In this document: one piece after another, positions 2,634 to 36,652 of the stretch | Layout of the letters: every line of letters begins with the position of its first letter | How positions within the stretch are numbered: position 1 is the first letter of the stretch | From: a virus | IMG/VR virus record: IMGVR_UViG_3300031839_000122 | Span: 1-38,017 of that record | Strand: one strand, 5' to 3' | Length of the DNA: 38,017 nucleotides | Position numbers and translations under genes: made by a program | The notes under the pieces: generated by a model | Databases searched by the model: none | The model's input: only the letters and a program-made list of their open reading frames with translations | Told to the model about the DNA's origin: nothing

Positions 2634-3410
2634 ATGACCTTTCCAGCACCTATAGTTCAGGGTGGTATTACAATATTTGATACTGGAACTATCATCACAA
2701 TTTCTGCTAATACTGCTGATTATAATTTAAGAAATGATCTTGTAAATAATTATAGTTGGGATGGCACAAGTGCTATTGATGTTACTCTGAATATTAATTC
2801 AGGCATAAATGTTAGAGCAACTACAATAGGAACTGCAGCTATTACAGCCGACCTTGTTGCAGGTTCTAATTTAACAATTAACAATAGCGGAACTATAGCA
2901 GGAAGAGGTGGTGCTGGAGGTAGTGCTGGCGGTCCTAATGGTGGAGCAGGTGGGGCTGGTGGAAACGCTATTGATCTTACAAATCTAACTTGTGTTATTA
3001 ACAATGCTTCGGGAGCTAACATTGCCGGTGCCGGTGGTGGTGGCGGTGGAGGTGCTGGCGGTACAGGTGGAGGAAGTTCTGATCCAGAATTGGGGTGTAG
3101 TGGACAAGTTTCATTCAGTGGAGGTGCAGGTGGTGCAGGAGCAAGCACCGATAATCCCGCTACTAATAATGCAACTGCTGGCAGTGCGGGGCAAAGCAAC
3201 TCCGGTGGCGACGGTGGGACTGGAGGTACTGGAGGAACTTGGGGAAATGCTGGAGCAAGTGGAGGTGGTGCTTCGGCAAACCCACCTAACGAATGCAAAT
3301 CGGCTGGAACTCCCGGTAGTGGTGGTGTTGCAGGTAAAGCAATTTCTGTAGGGTCAGGTGCGTCTAATACCTTAAATAATTCTGGAAACGTGTACGGGGC
3401 TACAAGTTAA
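2634..3410 (+). CDS. Glycine-rich gp38-like adhesin, copy 1
   Basis: The 258-aa protein begins with a beta-rich domain of about 90 residues (DYNLRNDLVNNYSWDG; DLVAGSNLTINNSGTIAGRG). A long region of GG-A/G/S runs follows, broken by short non-glycine loops, and the end is NNSGNVYGATS. Alternating polyglycine strands and variable loops are the mark of T4/S16 gp38-type adhesins, where packed polyglycine-II helices display loops that contact the receptor. Two cysteines in the loops may form a disulfide. It starts 1 nt after the fibre stop and is followed within 1 nt by a paralogue, so it is probably co-translated with the fibre. The gp38-like call is inferred from composition and layout; direct homology to gp38 is not shown. 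Confidence 0.7.
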   Translation: MTFPAPIVQGGITIFDTGTIITISANTADYNLRNDLVNNYSWDGTSAIDVTLNINSGINVRATTIGTAAITADLVAGSNLTINNSGTIAGRGGAGGSAGGPNGGAGGAGGNAIDLTNLTCVINNASGANIAGAGGGGGGGAGGTGGGSSDPELGCSGQVSFSGGAGGAGASTDNPATNNATAGSAGQSNSGGDGGTGGTGGTWGNAGASGGGASANPPNECKSAGTPGSGGVAGKAISVGSGASNTLNNSGNVYGATS

Positions 3411-3411
3411 A

Positions 3412-4170
3412 ATGTCTATTTTATTTTTTGGAAGCAGAAGACCTAAAGGTGAAACATTAACTATCACTTCAGATACAGAGAACTATAATCTGTCTAATGT
3501 TTTACAAGGTAGTTTTGGTTGGAACGGTGTAGACCCTATTGACGCTACGGTTGTTATTAATAGTGGTGTAAATGTTTTTAGCCAAGTTACTAATGTACCA
3601 GCATTTACTGCTCATCTTGTTGCAGGAAGTAATTTTATTTTAATTAATAATGGTAACATTATTGGTAGAGGTGGAGACGGTGGTGGTGCTGGTGGTGGTA
3701 GTGGCAGTAACGGTGGTGCAGGTGAAAATGGTGGAGATGCTATTAGTTTAGAAAATATTACCGCATCTATTACTAATGCTTCAGGCGCAAACATTGCCGG
3801 TGGCGGCGGCGGTGGCGGCGGGGGAGGAGGATACCGAACCTGTGATCGCTATGATGATGAATCTAGTACTTGTAGTGATTGTACTAATCTAGACGGAGGT
3901 AGTGGAGGTAAGGGCGCAAGCTTTGATGTTCCTCCTACCAATACTAATACAAGTGGATCATCGGGAGAAGCTTCTACTGGAGGACCAGGAGGAACTTGGG
4001 GTAACGTAGGTACAGGGGGTGCAGCAGGAAGTGGTCCTGCAGGTAATGTAAACTGTAGAGTTATTGGATCAGGTGGATCGGGAGGTGATGCAGGAAAAGC
4101 AGTTAGATTAAATTCAGGTGCATCGGTAAACATAACAAATAACGGGAATATTTATGGAGCTACATCGTAG
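3412..4170 (+). CDS. Glycine-rich gp38-like adhesin, copy 2 (paralogue)
   Basis: The 252-aa protein is clearly related to the preceding gene. Both share the N-terminal pattern YNLxNxL...W(D/N)GxxxIDxTxxINSG, the segment LVAGSNxxxxNNGxIxGRGG, glycine-rich stretches and the end (N/S)GN(V/I)YGATS. The N-terminal 20 residues and the loops between glycine runs differ most. One loop carries several acidic and cysteine residues (CDRYDDESSTCSDC). Conserved framework with divergent loops is what is expected of two receptor-binding tips with different specificities. The TAG is followed directly by the ATG of the cupin gene. Function is inferred from glycine-rich architecture and position next to fibre genes. 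Confidence 0.7.
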   Translation: MSILFFGSRRPKGETLTITSDTENYNLSNVLQGSFGWNGVDPIDATVVINSGVNVFSQVTNVPAFTAHLVAGSNFILINNGNIIGRGGDGGGAGGGSGSNGGAGENGGDAISLENITASITNASGANIAGGGGGGGGGGGYRTCDRYDDESSTCSDCTNLDGGSGGKGASFDVPPTNTNTSGSSGEASTGGPGGTWGNVGTGGAAGSGPAGNVNCRVIGSGGSGGDAGKAVRLNSGASVNITNNGNIYGATS

Positions 4171-4755
4171 ATGTTATTTTTAAACAATCGCACTTACATT
4201 GCACCTCAAAATAGTTTATACTATTACCAAGTAGATAACACAGGGAACCAATATAAAGTACCTAAAAATAGTTCAGCATGGATTATTAATAAAGAAAGTG
4301 TATCGGTTAAGAATTGGGGTACATGTTTTGGTGAAGTTATTATTACTATATACGGGTACACACCACCAAATAGAACTGCTCAAATTAATTTAAATGCTTA
4401 TTTACCTTATATTAATGGGTGCAGTACAAATAATATCCTACCTCCTATTCGATCTGGTGATCCTTGTATGCAATTATTAAAGATACCTGCTGGATGCTCA
4501 GAACAAAAACATCACATTCATTCAACAGATAGAGTGGTATATGTTTTATCGGGGAGAGGTACAGCAGTTTCAGGTGTAGGTTCTAATGTAGAGAGACATA
4601 AATTAGTTGAAGGCAAAACTTTAATTTTAAATGCTATGGAGCCACATCACTTTGAAACAGACGATGAAGACTTGATTGTTGTTCCTATGCATATATGGTC
4701 TAGTACTAATGAAGAATTTAACCATCCTATGATGTTGGGAACACATGTTGTCTAA
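4171..4755 (+). CDS. Cupin-domain protein in tail module
   Basis: In this 194-aa protein the second half is a cupin barrel. It shows KHHIHSTDRVVYVLSGRG as motif 1 (G-x5-HxH-x-E/D-like) and LNAMEPHHFETDDED as motif 2 (PxxxxH-like), giving three or four histidines able to bind a metal. The first 90 residues are beta-rich and polar (FLNNRTYIAPQNSLYYYQVD) and may be a separate virion-attachment or sugar-binding part. The gene follows the second adhesin with no gap and is itself followed by a small secreted peptide and an asparagine-synthetase-like gene. Substrate is unknown; a sugar- or nucleotide-sugar-related cupin, or a purely structural one on the virion, both fit. Cupin fold is fairly sure, role is not. 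Confidence 0.7.
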   Translation: MLFLNNRTYIAPQNSLYYYQVDNTGNQYKVPKNSSAWIINKESVSVKNWGTCFGEVIITIYGYTPPNRTAQINLNAYLPYINGCSTNNILPPIRSGDPCMQLLKIPAGCSEQKHHIHSTDRVVYVLSGRGTAVSGVGSNVERHKLVEGKTLILNAMEPHHFETDDEDLIVVPMHIWSSTNEEFNHPMMLGTHVV

Positions 4756-4765
4756 AAAATATATT

Positions 4766-4885
4766 ATGTATACACTAAAGTTTTTTGGTTTGTGTTTTGT
4801 TTTTTATGGTTGTTTTGCGTATTCTCAAGAACAAGTTAGAGTAATGGTGCAGCTTCATCAATCGGAAAAGAGTTTTATAGAATGA
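4766..4885 (+). CDS. 39-aa secreted/membrane peptide
   Basis: A short frame encodes 39 residues: Met, a few polar residues, a hydrophobic stretch (FFGLCFVFYGCFAYS) and a polar tail starting QEQVRVMVQ. This looks like a signal peptide with a cleavage site after Ser, or a single membrane helix. Its TGA overlaps the ATG of the next gene (ATGA), which supports real translation. An in-frame TTG at 4748 could add six residues (MSKKYI) and would overlap the cupin stop. No family is recognised. A second secreted protein follows the next gene, so the cassette appears to send products to the cell envelope. Confidence 0.5.
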   Translation: MYTLKFFGLCFVFYGCFAYSQEQVRVMVQLHQSEKSFIE

Positions 4886-6588
4886 GTTTAGTATTAAAAA
4901 GAATAGATAATCCAATACCGGGAAGTGATAAATCACCTTCTGATATTGATCTAAAGGTTATGGTTCTTAATGCAGATAAGACAGATTTTGAAGAGCAGTG
5001 GAAAGATTTACTAACTGTTAAAAAAGTTGTACTTGAAAGATTTGATAATCAATATGTAAAAAACAGAGATTGGTATTTTCCAGAACCTGAAAACATTACA
5101 CAAGTTGAACAATTCCTTAGATCAGAAATAACTGAAGACCAAGCAACTACAGTTATAGGAAATACTAAAGAAGAAAAAGTTGACAATGCATTACAACAAT
5201 TTAAGAATAATGCATCTAGATTATTTATTGAGGAATTATATCAAACTAGACGTCAAGAAATTTTAGATGCTACTGATCCTCAAACTTGTGTAGATATTTT
5301 AAATAATCAAGATGAATTTATTAATCCTATACCTGAAGAAGAATGTGTAGAGTGTGCAATTCTTTTACATACTGCTGTAGGTGTTGGACGAATTAGAAGT
5401 GTTTTCGGTCCATTAGATATTGATTGTAGTATAAAAGTTTTAGATAAATTTGTTGATATATTTAATTTTGAAACTCAGACATCGGTTGATGTATCAACAG
5501 ATGCACTAGGTGATAAATTAATTTTTGCTCGTCCAGATTTTTTAAGAGTTGGATCGGGTGAATATAAAAAAACAACTTTAGATGCTATAGGAAAAGATAT
5601 TCATTGTCTTTGGAATGCTATTGATCGAACAAATACTTTATCTAGTAATTTAAAGTTAGAGGGTAGTCCAATACCTGACGCTACAGGATTTACAAAAACC
5701 TTTATAGAAGTAGCAGATGAAACAGGTGTAAATCTATGGAATGAAGATAAGGAAATAAAAGTATACTGGAGTGGCGGAATAGATAGCACAGTAGCATTAG
5801 TAAGTCTATTAAAATCTAAACCGTCTGATTGGCACGATAGATTAAAAATTATTTATACTGACGCTTCTATTGAAGAGTATTCTTTATTTTGGAATAATTA
5901 TATTGATGGGAAAATTCAAACAGAAAAAGTTGTAGAACCAGTAAAAGACCCTGATAAATATTACATGGATAAACCTTTTTTCTCTCCCATTCTAAAACAC
6001 ATTGAAAATAATTTAGGTACTGGTATATCTGTTACAGGTGAATGTGGCGATCAACTTTTTGGCTCATCAGGATTGATGTCCCATCCTGAACTATTTCTTA
6101 TGACGGTAGATGAATTTTTAAAAGAAAAACATCCTGACAACATAGATGAAATAAAATTATTTAATTCTAAATGTCCTTATACTATATCTTCTATTGGAGA
6201 TTTATTTTGGTGGTGGAATTTTAATTTAAAATGGGACGAGGTAACTTATAGAGCATTGTCTCTTGTTAAAAACAAAAATGATTTAGCTAACTCTCGTTCC
6301 TTCTTTAGAACTGATGATTTTCAAAAATGGTCTATTTCAAATCCTGATAAAAAAATTAAAGATACTTTAGAGTCATATAAATTTACAGCGAAAGATTACA
6401 TCTTTGATTATACCTCAGATGCAGATTATAGAGATAAAAAATTAAAACATGGTTCTTTAAGAGTTAGATGGGGAAGCACTATAGCAATAGATAATAATAA
6501 TAATATTATTTATGCTGGAGATACCTCAACTAATACCGACTTGTTAAAAGATAAATATGGAGATTCACTACAAAGGTTTATTAATTAA
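4882..6588 (+). CDS. Asparagine-synthetase-like PP-loop protein (no glutaminase domain)
   Basis: The 568-aa protein carries a PP-loop ATP pyrophosphatase motif, SGGIDST at residues 297-303, and GECGDQLFG at 386-394, the counterpart of the GEGGDELFG motif of asparagine synthetase B. Both are hallmarks of the synthetase domain, which adenylates a carboxylate before amide or amine transfer. The N-terminal 290 residues do not look like the Cys-initiated glutaminase domain: the start is MSLVLKRID with no Cys2. So it must use free ammonia or another nucleophile, or do different chemistry. It lies between tail genes, coupled to an upstream secreted peptide by an ATGA overlap and 1 nt before a secreted protein. 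It may modify a virion protein or host surface molecule; that is an inference. Confidence 0.7.
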   Translation: MSLVLKRIDNPIPGSDKSPSDIDLKVMVLNADKTDFEEQWKDLLTVKKVVLERFDNQYVKNRDWYFPEPENITQVEQFLRSEITEDQATTVIGNTKEEKVDNALQQFKNNASRLFIEELYQTRRQEILDATDPQTCVDILNNQDEFINPIPEEECVECAILLHTAVGVGRIRSVFGPLDIDCSIKVLDKFVDIFNFETQTSVDVSTDALGDKLIFARPDFLRVGSGEYKKTTLDAIGKDIHCLWNAIDRTNTLSSNLKLEGSPIPDATGFTKTFIEVADETGVNLWNEDKEIKVYWSGGIDSTVALVSLLKSKPSDWHDRLKIIYTDASIEEYSLFWNNYIDGKIQTEKVVEPVKDPDKYYMDKPFFSPILKHIENNLGTGISVTGECGDQLFGSSGLMSHPELFLMTVDEFLKEKHPDNIDEIKLFNSKCPYTISSIGDLFWWWNFNLKWDEVTYRALSLVKNKNDLANSRSFFRTDDFQKWSISNPDKKIKDTLESYKFTAKDYIFDYTSDADYRDKKLKHGSLRVRWGSTIAIDNNNNIIYAGDTSTNTDLLKDKYGDSLQRFIN

Positions 6589-6589
6589 A

Positions 6590-6964
6590 ATGAAAAAAAT
6601 AATTTTAGCAGCTATTTTATTATTTTTATTGGTGCCTAATTATAGTGTAGCTCTAGCAAATACTTGGCAAATTGGTGACAAAGTAATTGTACTTTTTATG
6701 TGTAAAAAAGAAAAAGCTATAATGGATATAGCTTATGCTGATACTAAAAGTCAAGAAAAACTTAACTTAACTGTCTATAAAAATACTATTAATTCTAATT
6801 GTCTAGAAATAAGACCACCACAAATATTTTTAATTACTGATATTATTGGAAGTTACAAAGATTATAACAATAGAAATACTCTTATACTTAAAATTAAGTC
6901 ACCTGTTTATACCTATTTTAAAGGTTATATAGTAGCAACAGGTGTTGAAGGAAAAGGAATTTAA
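6590..6964 (+). CDS. Secreted 124-aa protein of unknown function
   Basis: The start chosen is the ATG at 6590, 1 nt after the preceding stop; it gives a textbook signal peptide (MKKIILAAILLFLLVP...SVALA) with a likely cut after VALA. An upstream in-frame ATG at 6557 lies inside the previous gene and would spoil the signal. The mature part is about 100 residues, beta-rich, with two cysteines (FMCKKE and NSNCLE) that could form one periplasmic disulfide. Export suggests action in the periplasm or outer membrane, for example superinfection exclusion or surface modification, but no family is recognised. The gene belongs to the cassette inserted between the adhesins and the next fibre gene. Confidence 0.6.
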   Translation: MKKIILAAILLFLLVPNYSVALANTWQIGDKVIVLFMCKKEKAIMDIAYADTKSQEKLNLTVYKNTINSNCLEIRPPQIFLITDIIGSYKDYNNRNTLILKIKSPVYTYFKGYIVATGVEGKGI

Positions 6965-6966
6965 GA

Positions 6967-7944
6967 ATGCCCAGTACTTATACTTCTAGAATTAGATTAG
7001 AAAAACAAGGTGATGGAGAAAATCCTAACAGTTGGGGTTCTATTCTAAATCAAAATGTTATTGATCTAGTAGATGAGGCTATTGCTGCATACACTACCAT
7101 TACTGTTTCTAGTGCGGATGTAACCTTAACAACTAATGACGGAACGTCAGATCAATCTCGTAGTCCCCTTTTAGAATTATCTGGAACTGTTTCTGCTAGC
7201 TTAAATGTTATTGTTCCAGAAAAATCTAAAGCTTATATTATTAACGACAAGACTACCAGAGAAAATTCAGCAGTAATTACTTTGAAAAGTGGGTCAGGCT
7301 CTGGTTCAGGATCAACAGTTGCAAGCGGCAGCAAAAAAATGTTTTTCTGTGATAGTGTTTCTGTTTATGGTCTTGATTATTTAACTGCTGAAACAACTGC
7401 TAGCTTTGCAAAACTATCTTCGGCTAATACTTTTACAGATACTAATACTTTTAATAAACCTGTAACCTTTGCATCTGCGGTGGGCTTTGCTACAAGTGTA
7501 TCAGCCACTAGTATATATACAACCTCTATTGCGGCTGATTCAGCAGTTGTTTCTAATGCAGTTTTAAATATTGTTAGTGTAGCAGGAAGTGCAACATTTA
7601 ATTCACAAGCTACATTCTCTGGTCAACTTGTAGTTCCACCTGTTACTCTAACAGAAGCAGCATCAATTGCTCTTGATCTATCGACAGCCACTACCTTCTT
7701 TGTTTCTTTAACGGGCAATAGAACTTTGCAGAATCCATCAAATGCATTGCCGGGACAGAGTGGATATATCTATGTATTTCAGGATAACACTGGAAGTCGG
7801 ACACTATCATATGGAGATAGTTACAATTTTCCTGATGCAGAGATTCCTGTTTTATCTACAGTAGCTAGTGCTGTAGATATGTTGGTTTACAATGTTCGGG
7901 GTGTAAGTGCAATTGATATGGTTTTAGTATCTTCATTTGGATAA
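6967..7944 (+). CDS. Tail fibre-like protein
   Basis: This 325-aa protein opens with RIRLEKQGDGENPNSWG and LVDEAIAAYTTITVSSADVT, the start typical of a widespread group of phage tail and fibre proteins in which the first 100 residues attach the protein to the tail. The rest is Ser/Thr/Ala-rich with a Gly-Ser run (KSGSGSGSGS) near residue 105 and a C-terminal beta domain (ATTFFVSLTGNRTLQNPSN). The gene starts 2 nt after the secreted-protein gene and is followed after 6 nt by the tail hub gene. It is probably a fibre or side appendage distinct from the 599-aa fibre. Confidence 0.7.
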   Translation: MPSTYTSRIRLEKQGDGENPNSWGSILNQNVIDLVDEAIAAYTTITVSSADVTLTTNDGTSDQSRSPLLELSGTVSASLNVIVPEKSKAYIINDKTTRENSAVITLKSGSGSGSGSTVASGSKKMFFCDSVSVYGLDYLTAETTASFAKLSSANTFTDTNTFNKPVTFASAVGFATSVSATSIYTTSIAADSAVVSNAVLNIVSVAGSATFNSQATFSGQLVVPPVTLTEAASIALDLSTATTFFVSLTGNRTLQNPSNALPGQSGYIYVFQDNTGSRTLSYGDSYNFPDAEIPVLSTVASAVDMLVYNVRGVSAIDMVLVSSFG

Positions 7945-7950
7945 AAACAT

Positions 7951-9837
7951 ATGCCATCTACTACTTCAAAATTAGAGAAATTAAATTTCAAGCCGGGGTT
8001 TCACCGAGAGTCTACTCAGTATTCTGAGGAGGGCAAGTGGTTTGATGGTGATCGGGTCAGATTTAGAGAAGGTAAACCTGAAAATTTAAGGGGGTATCAA
8101 AAATTTATTGATAACTCTTTTATTGGAATAGCAAGAGATTTGCTTGCATGGACAAATAATAATACAGAAAAACTTTTAGGGTTTGGCACTGAAAGTAAAT
8201 TATACGTTGTATATAGTGATTTTCCTTATGATGTAACACCAATTGTCAGCACTGTTAGTATTGGAGATTTAGGAACTGGAGGAAGTTTCAATACTGCTGC
8301 TGGATCACCTTTAATTGAAGTTAGTTCTAATAATAATGGTCGAGCCGTTGGTGACTTTGTAGAATTTTCTAATACATCTATTAATGGATTTGGAACAGAT
8401 GGCTTAGACTTTTCTGCCTCTTCTTTCGGTGGTCCAACCTTTGAGGTTGTTAGTGTTCAAGGATTAAATAATTTCTTTATTAGTGTAACTAGCATAGCTA
8501 CTAGCACTGAAACAAATCAAGGTAGTGGAGTTGCATTCTTTTTATTAGCATCAGGTAAGTCAAATCCTATTCAAGGATTAGGATATGGTGCTGGTGTATA
8601 TAATGCAGGTGCTTCTGCAACAGGAGAAAGAGCTTGGAATAGCCCGGCAGAATCTTCTAATATTGTTTTCTTAGGAACACAGTGGTCTTTAGACAACTTT
8701 GGTGAAGATTTATTAGCAGCTAGAGCGGGGGGACAGTTAATTCACTGGGATGCTACGGCTAGTTTAACCCCTGTTAGAGCAAGTATTGTACCAACATCTC
8801 CAGAGCAGATAAATAGCATTGTTATTTCTCCCAACGATAGACATGTTATTGCTTTAGGTACGGAAGAGTTTGCAACATCTGTATTTAATCCATTACTAGT
8901 AAGATGGTCTGATCAAGAAAGTTTTTCTAACTGGACTCCTTCAGTTTCTTCTACATCAGGTGAGCTACAGTTAATTGATGGTACTAGAATTATAGGAGGT
9001 GTGCGAGGACGTAATGCTATTCTTATTTACACTGACAATGCTCTATATACTTTACAGTATGTTGGTCCTCCGTTTACTTTTAGATTAGCTCAAGTCGGTA
9101 CGAACTGTGGTTTAATTGGTCTACATGCTGCAATTGATGTTGGTGGTAGAACATTCTGGATGGGCGATACTGATTTTTATGTCTTTGATGGTTCGGTTAA
9201 AAAATTAGATTGTACCATTAGAAGATTTTTATATGATGATTTTAATATGACTCAAAAGTCTAAAGTATTTGCAGGACTTAATTCTGAGTTTCATGAGGTT
9301 ATTTGGTTATATCCTAAAGAAGGATCAAATGAACCTAATGGTTATGTAATATATAATTATATGGAAAATACTTGGGTCTACGGAAGTAATTTTTATACTA
9401 CCTATATTGATGATTCTATTTTCCTTGATACGGTAGCAACTGGAGCAGTAAGCGGTACAGTTTCAACAACTAACCCACAGTACCTTTGGCTTAATGAGCC
9501 AACTTCTGTTTTCTCTGGTGATGGTCAAGCACTATCTTCTTTTATTGAAAGTGCTGATTTTGATATGGGTGATGGTGATGATATTATGTTTATGGATAGA
9601 ATTATTCCTGACTATGATATCAATCAAGGGACAATTAAATTTTCTTTAAATGTTAAAGATTTTCCTTCAGATTCTACAACGGAAGTTGGTCCTTTCGATA
9701 TAACAAATCAAACTAGAAAAATTGATATGAGGGCTAGGGGTAGACAGGCTAATGTTAGAGTATCAACGTCTGATATTAATACGTCTTGGAAATGGGGTAG
9801 TGTTAGAATAGCTATGCAACCAGCAGGTAAACGATAA
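7951..9837 (+). CDS. Tail hub / DNA-stabilisation protein (P22 gp10-like)
   Basis: The 628-aa protein starts with KLNFKPGFHRESTQYSEEGK and contains repeated beta-propeller-like blades, including GRNAILIYTDNALYTLQYVG, DVGGRTFWMGDTDFYVFDG and VIYNYMENTWVYG. This order resembles P22 gp10, which closes the tail channel below the adaptor and keeps DNA in the head, and related T7-like tail nozzle proteins. The C-terminal 100 residues form a beta domain (MDRIIPDYDINQGTIKFSL). Its TAA overlaps the next ATG (TAATG). Together with the SU10-like adaptor it defines a short-tailed virion. Homology to gp10 is judged from layout, not alignment. Confidence 0.7.
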   Translation: MPSTTSKLEKLNFKPGFHRESTQYSEEGKWFDGDRVRFREGKPENLRGYQKFIDNSFIGIARDLLAWTNNNTEKLLGFGTESKLYVVYSDFPYDVTPIVSTVSIGDLGTGGSFNTAAGSPLIEVSSNNNGRAVGDFVEFSNTSINGFGTDGLDFSASSFGGPTFEVVSVQGLNNFFISVTSIATSTETNQGSGVAFFLLASGKSNPIQGLGYGAGVYNAGASATGERAWNSPAESSNIVFLGTQWSLDNFGEDLLAARAGGQLIHWDATASLTPVRASIVPTSPEQINSIVISPNDRHVIALGTEEFATSVFNPLLVRWSDQESFSNWTPSVSSTSGELQLIDGTRIIGGVRGRNAILIYTDNALYTLQYVGPPFTFRLAQVGTNCGLIGLHAAIDVGGRTFWMGDTDFYVFDGSVKKLDCTIRRFLYDDFNMTQKSKVFAGLNSEFHEVIWLYPKEGSNEPNGYVIYNYMENTWVYGSNFYTTYIDDSIFLDTVATGAVSGTVSTTNPQYLWLNEPTSVFSGDGQALSSFIESADFDMGDGDDIMFMDRIIPDYDINQGTIKFSLNVKDFPSDSTTEVGPFDITNQTRKIDMRARGRQANVRVSTSDINTSWKWGSVRIAMQPAGKR

Positions 9838-21358: not shown

Positions 21359-21766
21359 TCAGTCAAATTTACAACGCTTTACCATCTCATCGACCTGTTC
21401 TTTGCCAAGAACCTCCAAAGCAGAGACAATAAGATTAATTAACTCTTCCTTACTTATATTCTTTCCATCTTCTACTTTGTTACCTCTAACTCTAGACAGA
21501 AGTTCTAGTGCTTTGATGGCGCTGTTAGTGTGTCCATTTGTTTTAGCAAAGGTATATTGATCTTCAATCTCTGCTACAACATCCACACTGGTCTTGAGTT
21601 CTCTGGATAGCTCTTCAATTCTTTCTACAATAAGATCATTCTGTAGAAGACGGTATCCTTGATTATATGCTGACCTATTAGAATAACCTGCACTCTTAGC
21701 TGCATCCGTAGCATTGTTGTTTAGTACATATGCCTGTGCAAATTTCTCCTGCTTCTCTGTCAGCAC
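21359..21766 (-). CDS. terS: Terminase small subunit
   Basis: The 135-aa protein begins LTEKQEKFAQAYVLNNNATD followed by AAKSAGYSNRSAYNQGYRLL, the typical N-terminal helix-turn-helix of Terminase_2-type small subunits that recognise packaging sites. A C-terminal helical part (EELINLIVSALEVLGKEQV) suits oligomerisation. It starts at GTG 21766, which overlaps the cupin stop (TAGTG) and has a strong GTAGGAGG leader. It is the last gene of the - strand block, so it is transcribed with early/middle genes and away from virion genes; the large subunit is not in the window. It partners with TerL in DNA packaging. Confidence 0.85.
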   Translation of the reverse strand: MLTEKQEKFAQAYVLNNNATDAAKSAGYSNRSAYNQGYRLLQNDLIVERIEELSRELKTSVDVVAEIEDQYTFAKTNGHTNSAIKALELLSRVRGNKVEDGKNISKEELINLIVSALEVLGKEQVDEMVKRCKFD

Positions 21767-22113
21767 TATTCTATTCCTCCTACCGTCTTGCGAACAATGT
21801 CTTCGCTAATCCCATTTAAATAATATACCTCTAAAGCTTCAACGGGTTCTTCCTTTGTAAAGAATCTATGATACTCATTAGGTTTAACTGAGGTAAACTG
21901 TCCTTGATATAATGGTGTTACATCTACTAGATCATAATCATTCTTTTGAACTTCAATAAATAGATTACCCTTTATGACATAAAACATATTCCATTTATAT
22001 TCATGTTTATGAAGAGAGCAGAAAGCATTCTTATTTATTTTTATTCTATGTACCTCAATCATCGAGGTAACTAGAAGAGGCTCTGTCGATCCCCAAACCT
22101 TTCCCATAATCAT
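21766..22113 (-). CDS. Small cupin protein
   Basis: This 115-aa single-domain cupin has FCSLHKHEYKWNMFYVIKGN as motif 1 (HxH...E-like) and VKPNEYHRFFTKEEPVEALE as motif 2, giving three histidines for a metal. The form is like mannose-6-phosphate isomerase type II or sugar-isomerase cupins. The ATG at 22113 is preferred over 22107 because AAGGA lies 7 nt before it. It follows two glycosyltransferase genes across a 154-nt AT-rich gap that holds no further gene, and precedes TerS. A role in sugar metabolism for surface modification is inferred from neighbours; the substrate is unknown. It is unrelated in length and layout to the 4171-4755 cupin protein. Confidence 0.7.
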   Translation of the reverse strand: MIMGKVWGSTEPLLVTSMIEVHRIKINKNAFCSLHKHEYKWNMFYVIKGNLFIEVQKNDYDLVDVTPLYQGQFTSVKPNEYHRFFTKEEPVEALEVYYLNGISEDIVRKTVGGIE

Positions 22114-22267: not shown

Positions 22268-24583
22268 TCATAAGTTTAAAATCTTTTCATAAGGTTGTAG
22301 TTTGTTTGTATCTGATATGCTCCATAACTTAGAAACCAGAGTTCCTTCTCCGTAGAAGTTGATGTTTAAATTAACATCTTCTTTTTCAAAAAGCTTTTCA
22401 CAATCTTGTGCCATCGCTAGAAGTTCTCCCGTTGTCCAGAAGCTTTCGTCATCGACACCCACCTTCAGATATTTAGGTTTACCCTCTTCGGTAACTTCTT
22501 TCTTTTCCTCTTCGGAAGGTTCAGGCATAGAGCAATCGTATCCAAACAAGTGAAACTCTCTAAATCCTAGAGTATGCATGATGCCAATAGATCGCATAGC
22601 GGCACAAGTCCCACCAATGATCATGGTTGCTCCCTCTTCAATACCTAAGTTCTCGTCAACCTTAACTGAACCATTTCTAACTTTTTCTTGAATATTTTCT
22701 TGCAGTGCATTGGTGTATGCATGCCATCCTACAATGTTAGATGTTTTCTTTCGTAGCAAATCTACCACAGACGGATCGGTCATAGATGCAGTCATGAACA
22801 AAGTTTTGTCATCAATAGTTTTAAACAAATCTTTTCTAACGACACCATGTGTACTAACGCCAGAGATTGGGCGAGGATCAAGAATAACACAGGCAAATGG
22901 TTCGATATTATTTTTTAATAGATCGGGATAGGAGTGCTTTACGCATACAACCTTTGCTCTTTTTTTACCGACTCTTTTAATAGTCTGCTTAACCTTCTTC
23001 CAGTCAGTACTTTTACCGCCTGAGATAATAATAGCCACATCATTATTTGCTTTTGCTTTTGTAATCCAAGTATCAATAACAGATGTATTCTTTTTAACAT
23101 TATTAAGAATATCTTCTTTAGGCATACAGTCTCTTGGCTGCACCACAATGGGTGCTCGGCTAAACTCAACAGGTAGATCAGGCAGATCGTCATCTGTTAG
23201 CACCACTGCTAAATGAGTTATACCTCCTTCAACAATTCTATCAGAGGATGGTAGAACCTTTTTTCTCTTCTCTACCTTTTCTATAATTTTATTAACGCCA
23301 TAGAACTCTTCACCGGGATCATTACCGTTAGGGTCTTTAGAAACAAAGTCATCAAAGACTACCACACTACTTTCTTTCAGCATGTCATAATCATGATTAA
23401 CGGTATCTTCTGAATGACCGCCATCAATGTAAGCAAAGTCTACTTTCTTTTGCTGTAGTGTGTGCTTTGTATCTCCCTTAAACAATTCAAAATTAAATGT
23501 CTTACCTTTTGATTTACAATCTTTCTGGTATTGATTCAGCCTATCTTCAACTGCAGCAAATAGATTGTGCTGCTTACTGTTTAGCTCCTTCTCGTCAAGC
23601 TCAGTTGTTGCATCTTCAAACAGATCATAACCATAGTACGTTACTTCATCAGAAGATTTGAATGCAATCTCGGCCATCTGAATAGCTCTACCACCATTCC
23701 ATGTACCTGTCTCTGCAATTGTTTTGGGCTTATAGTGATCCACCAACTGTAGCAGTTGTCCATATCGTTTAGGACCATTGATATCAGGAGCGACTGTCTG
23801 TGAGATATTTTTCTTCTTATTACCTTTATAATGTTTTACATATTTCGACAGAGGGAATAAATCAAAAGCCTGATCTCCGTTGATCGGGTCTTTAATATCT
23901 GCATTGCCTGTCCAATCCATAAACTTCAGACCATGAGCCTTGTAGATAATAAGCAGACGCTCGAAAAGAAAACCGTCATGCCATTCTCTATAATTTAGAA
24001 TCTCTCCAGTAATATAAGCACCTACAAGATCGCCGATAAACTCTAGAGAAACTTCACTGTTTAGATTAAAACCAACGAACGATGTTTCACTATATGTAAA
24101 ATTCTTTCTTCCTAGATGTACCAAATCTACATCTGGTAGTGCTTCAAGAAAAGATGTTTTAGATAAGTCTTTATGTGTGGTAGTATCTGCATCTAACCAC
24201 ACAAGCCAATCAGGTGAGTAGCCGTCCCTATCGGCTTTTGCCTTTCTTTCAAAGGCACAATCAGCTATTGCAAATACTTTGTGACAAAACTTAATAGCAT
24301 CCATACGCCAGTTGTATTGCTTTGTCTCGGGAGACATACCATTAAACTTTTTATATGTATCTCTAAATTGATTTAATTCTTCTAGATCATTTAGATTTCT
24401 AAATTCAATGTTCTTATTATCTGGTAACTTCTTTGTGTTGATATCAAAGTCATGATAATAAGCAATCAATTTAATTGATGGCTCCCAGTGTTCAGCGGCA
24501 GTGAATACCATCTTCTCTGCATAGTCATGCCAGCCCTGCTCCGAGAAGGAGGTAACGACTGTTACTGTTCTTAAATTACTCAT
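22268..24583 (-). CDS. Three-domain glycosyltransferase - SAM methyltransferase - DUF115 fusion
   Basis: The 771-aa protein has three parts. Residues 1-260 are glycosyltransferase-like, with WLVWLDADTTTH at 126-137 holding a DxD metal site. Residues 270-470 are a class I methyltransferase of the FkbM/Methyltransf_24 type: IAETGTWNGG (289-298) is the SAM loop, then YIDGGH (385-390) and VVVFDDFV (407-414). Residues 515-770 match DUF115/MAF-flag10-like, as in motility-associated factors that transfer nonulosonic sugars: IIISGGKS, VILDPRPISG, GGTCAAMRSIGIMHTLG and FHLFGYDCSMPE. The gene overlaps the GT8-like gene by 8 nt. It probably builds or methylates a glycan on host surface or virion. I know of no family with this exact order. 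Confidence 0.75.
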   Translation of the reverse strand: MSNLRTVTVVTSFSEQGWHDYAEKMVFTAAEHWEPSIKLIAYYHDFDINTKKLPDNKNIEFRNLNDLEELNQFRDTYKKFNGMSPETKQYNWRMDAIKFCHKVFAIADCAFERKAKADRDGYSPDWLVWLDADTTTHKDLSKTSFLEALPDVDLVHLGRKNFTYSETSFVGFNLNSEVSLEFIGDLVGAYITGEILNYREWHDGFLFERLLIIYKAHGLKFMDWTGNADIKDPINGDQAFDLFPLSKYVKHYKGNKKKNISQTVAPDINGPKRYGQLLQLVDHYKPKTIAETGTWNGGRAIQMAEIAFKSSDEVTYYGYDLFEDATTELDEKELNSKQHNLFAAVEDRLNQYQKDCKSKGKTFNFELFKGDTKHTLQQKKVDFAYIDGGHSEDTVNHDYDMLKESSVVVFDDFVSKDPNGNDPGEEFYGVNKIIEKVEKRKKVLPSSDRIVEGGITHLAVVLTDDDLPDLPVEFSRAPIVVQPRDCMPKEDILNNVKKNTSVIDTWITKAKANNDVAIIISGGKSTDWKKVKQTIKRVGKKRAKVVCVKHSYPDLLKNNIEPFACVILDPRPISGVSTHGVVRKDLFKTIDDKTLFMTASMTDPSVVDLLRKKTSNIVGWHAYTNALQENIQEKVRNGSVKVDENLGIEEGATMIIGGTCAAMRSIGIMHTLGFREFHLFGYDCSMPEPSEEEKKEVTEEGKPKYLKVGVDDESFWTTGELLAMAQDCEKLFEKEDVNLNINFYGEGTLVSKLWSISDTNKLQPYEKILNL

Positions 24584-26327: not shown

Positions 26328-26404
26328 TGGCACTCTCGGCAGGACTCGAACCTGCAACCTACAGATTAGAAGTCTGTTGCTCTATCCAGTTGAGCTACGA
26401 GAGT
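26328..26404 (-). tRNA. tRNA-Arg (UCU)
   Basis: All four arms are present. The acceptor is ACTCTCG pairing with CGAGAGT, the D arm is GCTC...GAGC, the anticodon arm is ACAGA-CTTCTAA-TCTGT with anticodon TCT, and the T arm contains GGTTCGAGTCC. The 3' CCA is encoded. The 77-nt gene starts on the last base of the RNR stop codon. It reads AGA, which is the dominant Arg codon in this window, so it probably supports phage translation. Confidence 0.95.
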
Positions 26405-36091: not shown

Positions 36092-36652
36092 TCACATAAA
36101 TTGTGGACCATTGTACCAACAGACAATAGAGTATCTGCTGCCATATTTAACGGGTGTTACTTGATGCCACATAAACGATGGAAATACTACCACGCTTCCG
36201 GCATTACGCATTTCCTTAACGGTTTCATATCTTTTCTTTTCTACTGGCGATACAAGATTTTGTATTTGGAAGTCACCACCCTTGAAGTTCTCGTTCAGTG
36301 TTATACACACACTGAGCTTGCGAACAAGTCCGTTTTCGTCGGGCAGCATATCATGATGCCATGTGTACTTATCATCCTTACGATAGATACTGACCTGTGG
36401 GATTTCATATCCAGTTAAATTATAGTTCCATCCGCATTCATCTTTAGCAAATCCAACATATAAACTAAAGATATCTACTAATTCTTTTGAGTTTAAAAAG
36501 GCAACCTGAGATTGTCTCCTCTCCTCGTCAAGAATATCACTATCATCTCCTGCCACTGTGGAGCCATCGAAGTTCAACTCTTTTAGATATTTAATAATAT
36601 TATTACAATTATTTTTATCTATTGCTTTATCATAAACTTTATATGTTTGCAT
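36092..36652 (-). CDS. 2-oxoglutarate/Fe(II) oxygenase (prolyl-hydroxylase-like)
   Basis: The 186-aa protein has the facial triad H99-x-D101 in WHHDML and H163 in FPSFMWHQVTPV, with R173 in GSRYSIVCWY binding 2-oxoglutarate. LNENFKGGDFQIQN is the usual strand before the distal histidine. This is the PKHD/P4Hc fold found in many marine phages. It hydroxylates an unknown substrate, which could be protein, nucleobase or small molecule. A GU-completed hairpin lies just upstream. Confidence 0.85.
   Translation of the reverse strand: MQTYKVYDKAIDKNNCNNIIKYLKELNFDGSTVAGDDSDILDEERRQSQVAFLNSKELVDIFSLYVGFAKDECGWNYNLTGYEIPQVSIYRKDDKYTWHHDMLPDENGLVRKLSVCITLNENFKGGDFQIQNLVSPVEKKRYETVKEMRNAGSVVVFPSFMWHQVTPVKYGSRYSIVCWYNGPQFM

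Follow-up and report, generated by a model that had tools for sequence, protein, structure and literature searches.

An asparagine-synthetase-like enzyme encoded beside polyglycine adhesins in a marine bacterial virus, a candidate for chemical modification of the receptor-binding module

The stretch of DNA analysed here, hereafter the window, is the whole 38,017-base IMG/VR virus record IMGVR_UViG_3300031839_000122, described as a marine virus of bacteria. Between positions 4171 and 6964 it carries four open reading frames (ORFs) on one strand, each overlapping or almost touching its neighbour: a 194-residue cupin (4171..4755, +), a 46-residue membrane peptide that overlaps the end of the cupin and the start of the enzyme (4745..4885, +), a 568-residue asparagine-synthetase (AS)-like amide-ligase candidate (4882..6588, +), and a hypervariable 124-residue exported protein with a signal peptide (6590..6964, +). 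A preliminary description of this DNA had placed four coupled genes between adhesins and a fibre gene, and this was confirmed: all the ORFs are present on the same strand, two adhesins precede them and a fibre-like gene follows; its coordinates and enzyme motifs were also correct. The GP38-type polyglycine adhesins (adhesin 1, 258 residues, 2634..3410, +; adhesin 2, 252 residues, 3412..4170, +) match Pfam PF05268 at E=1.1e-7 and E=3.4e-7 respectively, the two scores (30.8 and 32.3 bits) lying above the cut-off of 25, a likeness to the GP38 adhesins of T-even phages, for which we know of no association with an AS-like enzyme or a cupin. The window adhesins contain polyglycine stretches, their alignment across relatives reveals a GATS C-terminus and two invariant cysteines, and the stop codon of adhesin 2 abuts the start of the cupin.

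The ATP site of the enzyme is intact. The PP-loop SGGIDST, the ATP pyrophosphate site (residues 297-303; 5770..5790, +), is invariant in a 12-relative alignment, and the second motif, GECGDQ (residues 386-391; 6037..6054, +), the counterpart of GEGSDE in AsnB, sits in an intact TGECGDQLFG context (GECGDQLFG being residues 386-394) and is likewise invariant or almost so in these close relatives. Across 36 divergent members SGGIDS is invariant and G386, E387, G389 and D390 are kept in at least 90%; the second motif varies between GECGDQ and GELGDQ and is largely conserved. The preliminary description had named loss of the ATP-binding residues as grounds for abandoning its view; instead, both motifs proved conserved. 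It had also noted that a glutaminase domain is missing, and we agree: the enzyme begins MSLVLKR, so that residue 2 is serine and not the Cys2 of an N-terminal nucleophile (Ntn)-type glutaminase, and residues 1-233 (4882..5580, +) form a different domain, mainly helical in the predicted model. This N-terminal domain is unique to the adhesin-linked clade in an hmmsearch with its profile, has no match in Pfam or PHROG, and contains three invariant cysteines (Cys155, Cys158 and Cys182). Kinship between it and the ~220-residue partner proteins encoded beside the enzymes of Candidate Phyla Radiation (CPR) bacteria and Xanthomonas was tested and no relation emerged; between the partners of these two groups, however, a relation is probable (prob 70).

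For the enzyme nothing in Pfam or NCBIfam scored above cut-off, PHROG gave no convincing match, hmmscan found no match to Asn_synthase (PF00733) at E<=1, and single-sequence and profile searches of the PDB gave no significant match for either enzyme or cupin. PF00733 is found nowhere in the window record by a search that was positive in 11 of 14 control genomes. The AlphaFold (AF2) model of the enzyme has a mean predicted local distance difference test score (pLDDT) of 88.4 and a predicted template modelling score (pTM) of 0.81, and its best Foldseek match in the PDB is Escherichia coli AsnB (1ct9; prob 1.00, E=7e-3, with a full-chain TM score of only ~0.25). LarE, TsnB9 and human ASNS rank next and beta-lactam synthetase lower; the matches have probabilities of 0.99-1.00 and weak E values of 7e-3 to 4e-2. 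In a viral structure library the model matches several proteins labelled asparagine synthase. Two of these phage proteins, A0A6J5LYZ2 and A0A8S5PBV1, share the predicted fold of the C-terminal domain (E 5e-15 and 6e-14; TMt 0.71 and 0.65), but they are ~370 residues long, lack the N-terminal domain and are uncharacterised. With AsnB and ASNS the enzyme shares the PP-loop and the GE(G/C)xD motif; it differs from them in lacking the Ntn glutaminase, Cys2 and a PF00733 match, in its other N-terminal domain, in having GECGDQ for GEGSDE, and in an extra family signature, DRTxxL...IP plus DDFQKWS...SYKxxAKDYI. Beta-lactam synthetase (1mbz) and the hydroxyamidotransferase TsnB9 (7ylz), structural matches that join carboxylates to amines within the AS superfamily, resemble the enzyme in the fold comparison only, with no sequence profile match and another gene context. 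On the strength of the model and motifs we read the enzyme as a probable divergent, almost purely viral branch of the asparagine-synthetase (PP-loop) superfamily, and from that placement we infer amide-bond chemistry.

A PP-loop is also found in enzymes that modify tRNA or DNA bases, such as TilS, MnmA and QueC, and a nucleic-acid substrate would fit the sub-threshold matches of the enzyme to QueC, LarE and MesJ/TilS as well as the annotation of its relatives in Pseudomonas phage Cygsa01 as mnmA. We nevertheless consider such a role quite improbable: those matches are confined to the PP-loop, beyond which the QueC, TilS, MnmA and LarE family profiles give none; the GECGDQ motif and the AsnB-led Foldseek ranking point elsewhere; and the adhesin-linked clade is not linked to nucleic-acid genes and has no recognised RNA-binding domain. 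A second AS-like paralogue of 373-376 residues, with the PP-loop LSGGFDS and a changed second motif, occurs in some relatives (L161, 2453-3574, - strand; L011, 6185-7315), where it adjoins capsid genes in the window-type relative L161 and an adhesin in L011/L012. The window begins downstream of the capsid region in which L161 bears this paralogue.

The cupin immediately upstream matches Pfam Cupin_2 above cut-off (E=2e-7). It departs from the canonical ligand set HxH(x3-4)E ... H in having HIHSTDR, with an invariant arginine at the glutamate position (HxH(x3)R ... H), and H115, H117, R121 and H159 are invariant across the alignment; from the sequence pattern, the three retained histidines (115, 117 and 159) suggest a 3-His metal site. 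Its AF2 model is mostly beta, and the bicupins that it matches include two proteins of small-molecule pathways, BacB and AerE. This cupin was seen solely where the AS-like enzyme family is encoded: of 71 cupin locus rows, which include overlapping retrievals of the same contigs, 70 have an AS-like gene no more than five genes away, and the exception, L018, ends inside the enzyme gene. Since an AS-like gene is so consistently close by, the cupin appears to depend on the enzyme. The pair also occurs in T4-like phages, in the phages of L119 and L123 and in Xanthomonas prophages.

Purifying selection acts on three of the four ORFs. Against relatives at measurable distance, the cupin has a ratio of nonsynonymous to synonymous substitution rates (dN/dS) of 0.09-0.22, the 46-residue peptide one of 0.12-0.27 and the enzyme one of 0.21-0.40, so that all three are constrained and are more than chance ORFs. 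The peptide had previously been given as 39 residues, which starts too late; we place its start at ATG 4745 because the longer start is conserved and because, in L005/L006, which have no cupin, the ORF begins straight after the adhesin stop. It has an N-terminal hydrophobic segment and a conserved tail, EQVRVxVxLHQxE. Its overlap with the enzyme start and its purifying selection could be taken to mean that it is the precursor of a lasso- or microcin-like ribosomal peptide modified by the enzyme, a product that the preliminary description had entertained and that we regard as very improbable. The peptide is dispensable, being absent in L021, L034 and L042 and reduced in L011/L012 to a stub from which the hydrophobic part is deleted; no protease or leader-binding gene is adjacent, the features of lasso-peptide cyclases are lacking, and no equivalent peptide was seen beside distant family members.

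The exported protein behaves differently from its neighbours, sharing only 24-43% identity with its positional counterparts against 77-91% for the adjacent genes, and in comparison with the near relative L002 its dN is 0.06 and its dS 0.013. Adhesin 2 has a dN/dS of 0.94 in the same comparison, with few changes, so that this value is merely suggestive. By analogy, a fast-changing exported protein together with a fast-changing adhesin would fit an arms race at the receptor level. The Llp-type proteins of phage T5 are small exported receptor-blocking proteins encoded beside a receptor-binding gene, and offer an analogy, with the difference that the window protein has no obvious lipobox. Its gene seems to serve an interaction at the surface in its own right, possibly receptor masking or superinfection exclusion, and the protein does not look like a substrate of the enzyme.

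The four genes do not move as one block. The cupin is absent in L005/L006, L034 and L019, the peptide is missing or reduced as described above, and the exported protein is absent in L036 and replaced by other genes in L019, L041, L042 and L045. Because the genes come and go separately, an outcome named beforehand as refuting, we reject a single four-gene cassette and regard the peptide and the exported protein as accessory, lineage-specific genes. What survives is a core of adhesin and enzyme, with or without the cupin: all loci that encode the full enzyme, with its N-terminal and catalytic domains, and that have enough viral upstream sequence have a polyglycine adhesin gene as their close upstream neighbour, even where enzyme identity falls to ~40%. 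The remaining loci of this type are cut by contig ends, apart from a chromosomal copy in an alphaproteobacterial metagenome-assembled genome (MAG; L097), which we take as a remnant since it is N-terminally truncated and lies beside a response-regulator-type gene. Of the preliminary description, then, the AS-type enzyme tied to a receptor-binding module stands, and the four-gene block and the peptide product fall away. As for the adhesins themselves, our scan covers the matches listed only, and tblastn of phage records with the window adhesin gave no match. An E-x2-3-C motif found in enzyme-linked adhesins is not put forward as a modification site, as L147, which has no enzyme, bears it too.

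As far as sequence scans reach, the enzyme family is nearly exclusive to viruses. In viral contigs a profile scan yielded 188 relatives, of which the best 79 loci were used. Among cellular genomes, a single-pattern scan of 84,980 species found 11 loci, a number to be read as a lower bound; they lie in Xanthomonas prophages, in a small number of CPR MAGs and in MAG contigs, some of which are clearly phage. When 50,697 deposited phage records were queried with three members of the family, one phage, Cygsa01, was retrieved. Distant members are mostly stand-alone proteins of ~330-400 residues, some in tandem (three in L022 and L054, five in L083).

Linkage to host-recognition genes recurs among these distant members. 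In Cygsa01 (L144) a long tail fibre and a 278-residue protein with 31% glycine, matched by the adhesin profile at E=1.8e-8, precede two AS-like genes (4691-6837), deposited as tRNA 2-thiouridylase MnmA, which is probably a misnaming. In the T4-like contig L050 the order is an adhesin C-terminus, a 115-residue protein, cupin and AS-like gene. In a maximum-likelihood tree of the catalytic domain with low deep support, the window clade is placed on a different branch from Cygsa01 and from L050, which are themselves apart, and the arrangement is repeated in each; the polyglycine-adhesin linkage therefore occurs in separate lineages. Seven Xanthomonas-type loci comprise a short fibre, a ~200-residue partner, the AS-like gene, a cupin and a 2-oxoglutarate (2OG)-Fe(II) oxygenase (PF13640, E=7e-11 in L099), and the prophage fibres end in very long polyproline or Pro-Thr repeats (L099, L103, L069-L071, L084 and L093); with the oxygenase gene following, they are candidates for a hydroxylated phage fibre. 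L123/L126 combine tail-fibre genes, AS-like gene and cupin with an Asp/Asn beta-hydroxylase (PF05118, E~1e-39), and in L049 fibre genes, one encoding a Thr/Ser-rich 413-residue protein, are followed by a 301-residue protein, the AS-like gene and an SSF symporter.

We propose that the enzyme modifies the adhesin or fibre by ATP-dependent amide ligation, a tentative explanation to which we assign a probability of about 0.42; of the products raised in the preliminary description, a modified virion protein is the one that best fits an enzyme with intact ATP motifs linked to a receptor-binding module. It is favoured because linkage to adhesins and fibres recurs and because hydroxylases keep company with the enzyme; 2OG-Fe(II) oxygenases and Asp/Asn beta-hydroxylases are classes known to modify proteins. 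The enzyme would adenylate a carboxylate with ATP and transfer it to ammonia or another amine. Its most likely target would be the polyglycine (GP38-type) adhesin encoded directly upstream, which would receive amidated carboxylates or a small joined group; the putative metal-binding cupin might prepare or finish that group by oxidation or isomerisation in the same path, and the clade-specific helical N-terminal domain would probably recognise the adhesin or its assembly intermediate. The exported protein would more likely act in receptor masking or superinfection. We infer the substrate and product, the amine donor and the roles of cupin and N-terminal domain from gene context and fold.

Several observations weigh against modification of the adhesin. 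Polyglycine adhesins related to the window type occur without an AS-like gene (L146-L153), one of them, L147, in the order fibre-adhesin-tail, and an adhesin can therefore work unmodified; sequence comparison found no feature that separates enzyme-associated adhesins from the others. Adhesin linkage is not a feature of the whole enzyme family. Most of the stand-alone members retrieved sit in islands that separate the genes of the small and large terminase in T4-like marine contigs; a search of 14 non-window-type contig fragments, mostly T4-like, found no GP38-type adhesin. CPR loci, which pair the AS-like gene with its ~220-residue partner, do not obviously adjoin tail genes. The profile-profile link of the family to AsnB, moreover, spans only the PP-loop (prob 93). 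It is the enzyme-free adhesins, the adhesin-free terminase islands and the want of a distinguishing adhesin feature that hold our estimate where it is.

These same islands suggest another product. Hypervariable islands for host recognition have been described in marine phages, as have variable islands that encode GP38 adhesins and Fe(II) oxygenases, and pelagimyophages have radical-SAM (S-adenosylmethionine) cassettes (PMC3909814, PMC7029224). The enzyme and cupin might produce, or act on, a small molecule or a group of the host surface, such as an amidated sugar acid or an amino-acid derivative, either as part of auxiliary metabolism or to change the envelope of the host, adhesin linkage reflecting only a shared hypervariable host-interaction island. 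The T4-like terminase islands also hold radical SAM, B12-radical SAM, SSF, TctC, TRAP, QueC-like PP-loop, 2OG-Fe(II) and cupin genes; TRAP (DctQ/M/P), SSF and TctC transporter genes adjoin AS-like genes in viral contigs L083, L088-L094, L054 and L122, and SSF- and TctC-like genes lie near them in CPR MAGs L101, L102 and L104 (by reading, not by profile). Tandem AS-like copies (x2-x5) and the likeness of the cupin model to BacB and AerE agree with such a role, and AS-like amidotransferases of sugar acids are known (WbpS type). However, the window cassette is not flanked by any sugar-nucleotide or glycosyltransferase gene; in the window clade, as in L050, Cygsa01 and Xanthomonas, fibres or adhesins are the neighbours; and polyglycine-adhesin phages of distinct types bear the enzyme independently. 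We regard a small-molecule or host-surface product as less likely than a modified adhesin but as a serious rival to it.

The independent gain and loss of cupin, peptide and exported protein, a GC content of 25-33% in the cassette against 37% in the whole window, and the second AS-like paralogue near capsid genes or an adhesin could instead describe a loose set of accessory genes with separate roles at a recombination hot spot beside the adhesins, their linkage selected only at the level of the island. That the cupin is never found apart from AS-like genes across several phage types, and that the enzyme stays behind the adhesin down to ~40% identity, make this unlikely.

Elsewhere in the window, the fibre-like gene after the cassette (6967..7944, +) matches PHROG phrog_9017, tail fiber (E=3e-4), and phrog_4757 (2e-14), and the next gene (7951-9837) matches virion structural family phrog_3287, its nearest proteins being those of Phage DSL-LC04 and pelagiphages HTVC023P/HTVC027P at 31-34% identity. 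A promoter/terminator scan gave 29 promoter-like matches, fewer than the shuffled-sequence mean of 37.5, and no terminator-like match inside the cassette itself. A second small cupin (21766-22113), unrelated to that of the cassette, and a 771-residue protein with Methyltransf_24 and MptE-like domains (22268-24583), adjoining a glycosyltransferase-like gene, possibly form another sugar-modification set. The early region encodes a 2OG-Fe(II) oxygenase (36092-36652; PF13640, E=1e-15), and the replication half a tRNA-Arg (TCT) gene (26328-26404).

In conclusion, the enzyme represents a probable, so far unassigned branch of the AS superfamily in viruses, which carries a new domain and is met repeatedly in the company of adhesins, cupins and oxygenases. 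No account of an adhesin-linked AS-like enzyme was found in the literature searched, which left aside subscription papers and preprints and so gives weak evidence of absence. The recurrence of the enzyme family beside the gripping proteins of unrelated viruses suggests that some viruses chemically finish or decorate their host-recognition parts. A broader and more doubtful possibility is that AS-type ligase, cupin and, in some phages, 2OG-Fe(II) hydroxylases together represent an unrecognised viral post-translational tailoring of low-complexity adhesins (polyglycine, polyproline or Pro-Thr), which would alter binding target or strength without any change in the sequence of the adhesin gene. 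It is from this gene that host range is usually deduced; if such tailoring occurs, receptor specificity would be wrongly predicted from sequence alone, and a recombinant adhesin would not behave as it should when made in the absence of the enzyme. Uncultured viruses carry the family widely, and Cygsa01 and the Xanthomonas prophages provide a first testable cultured system.

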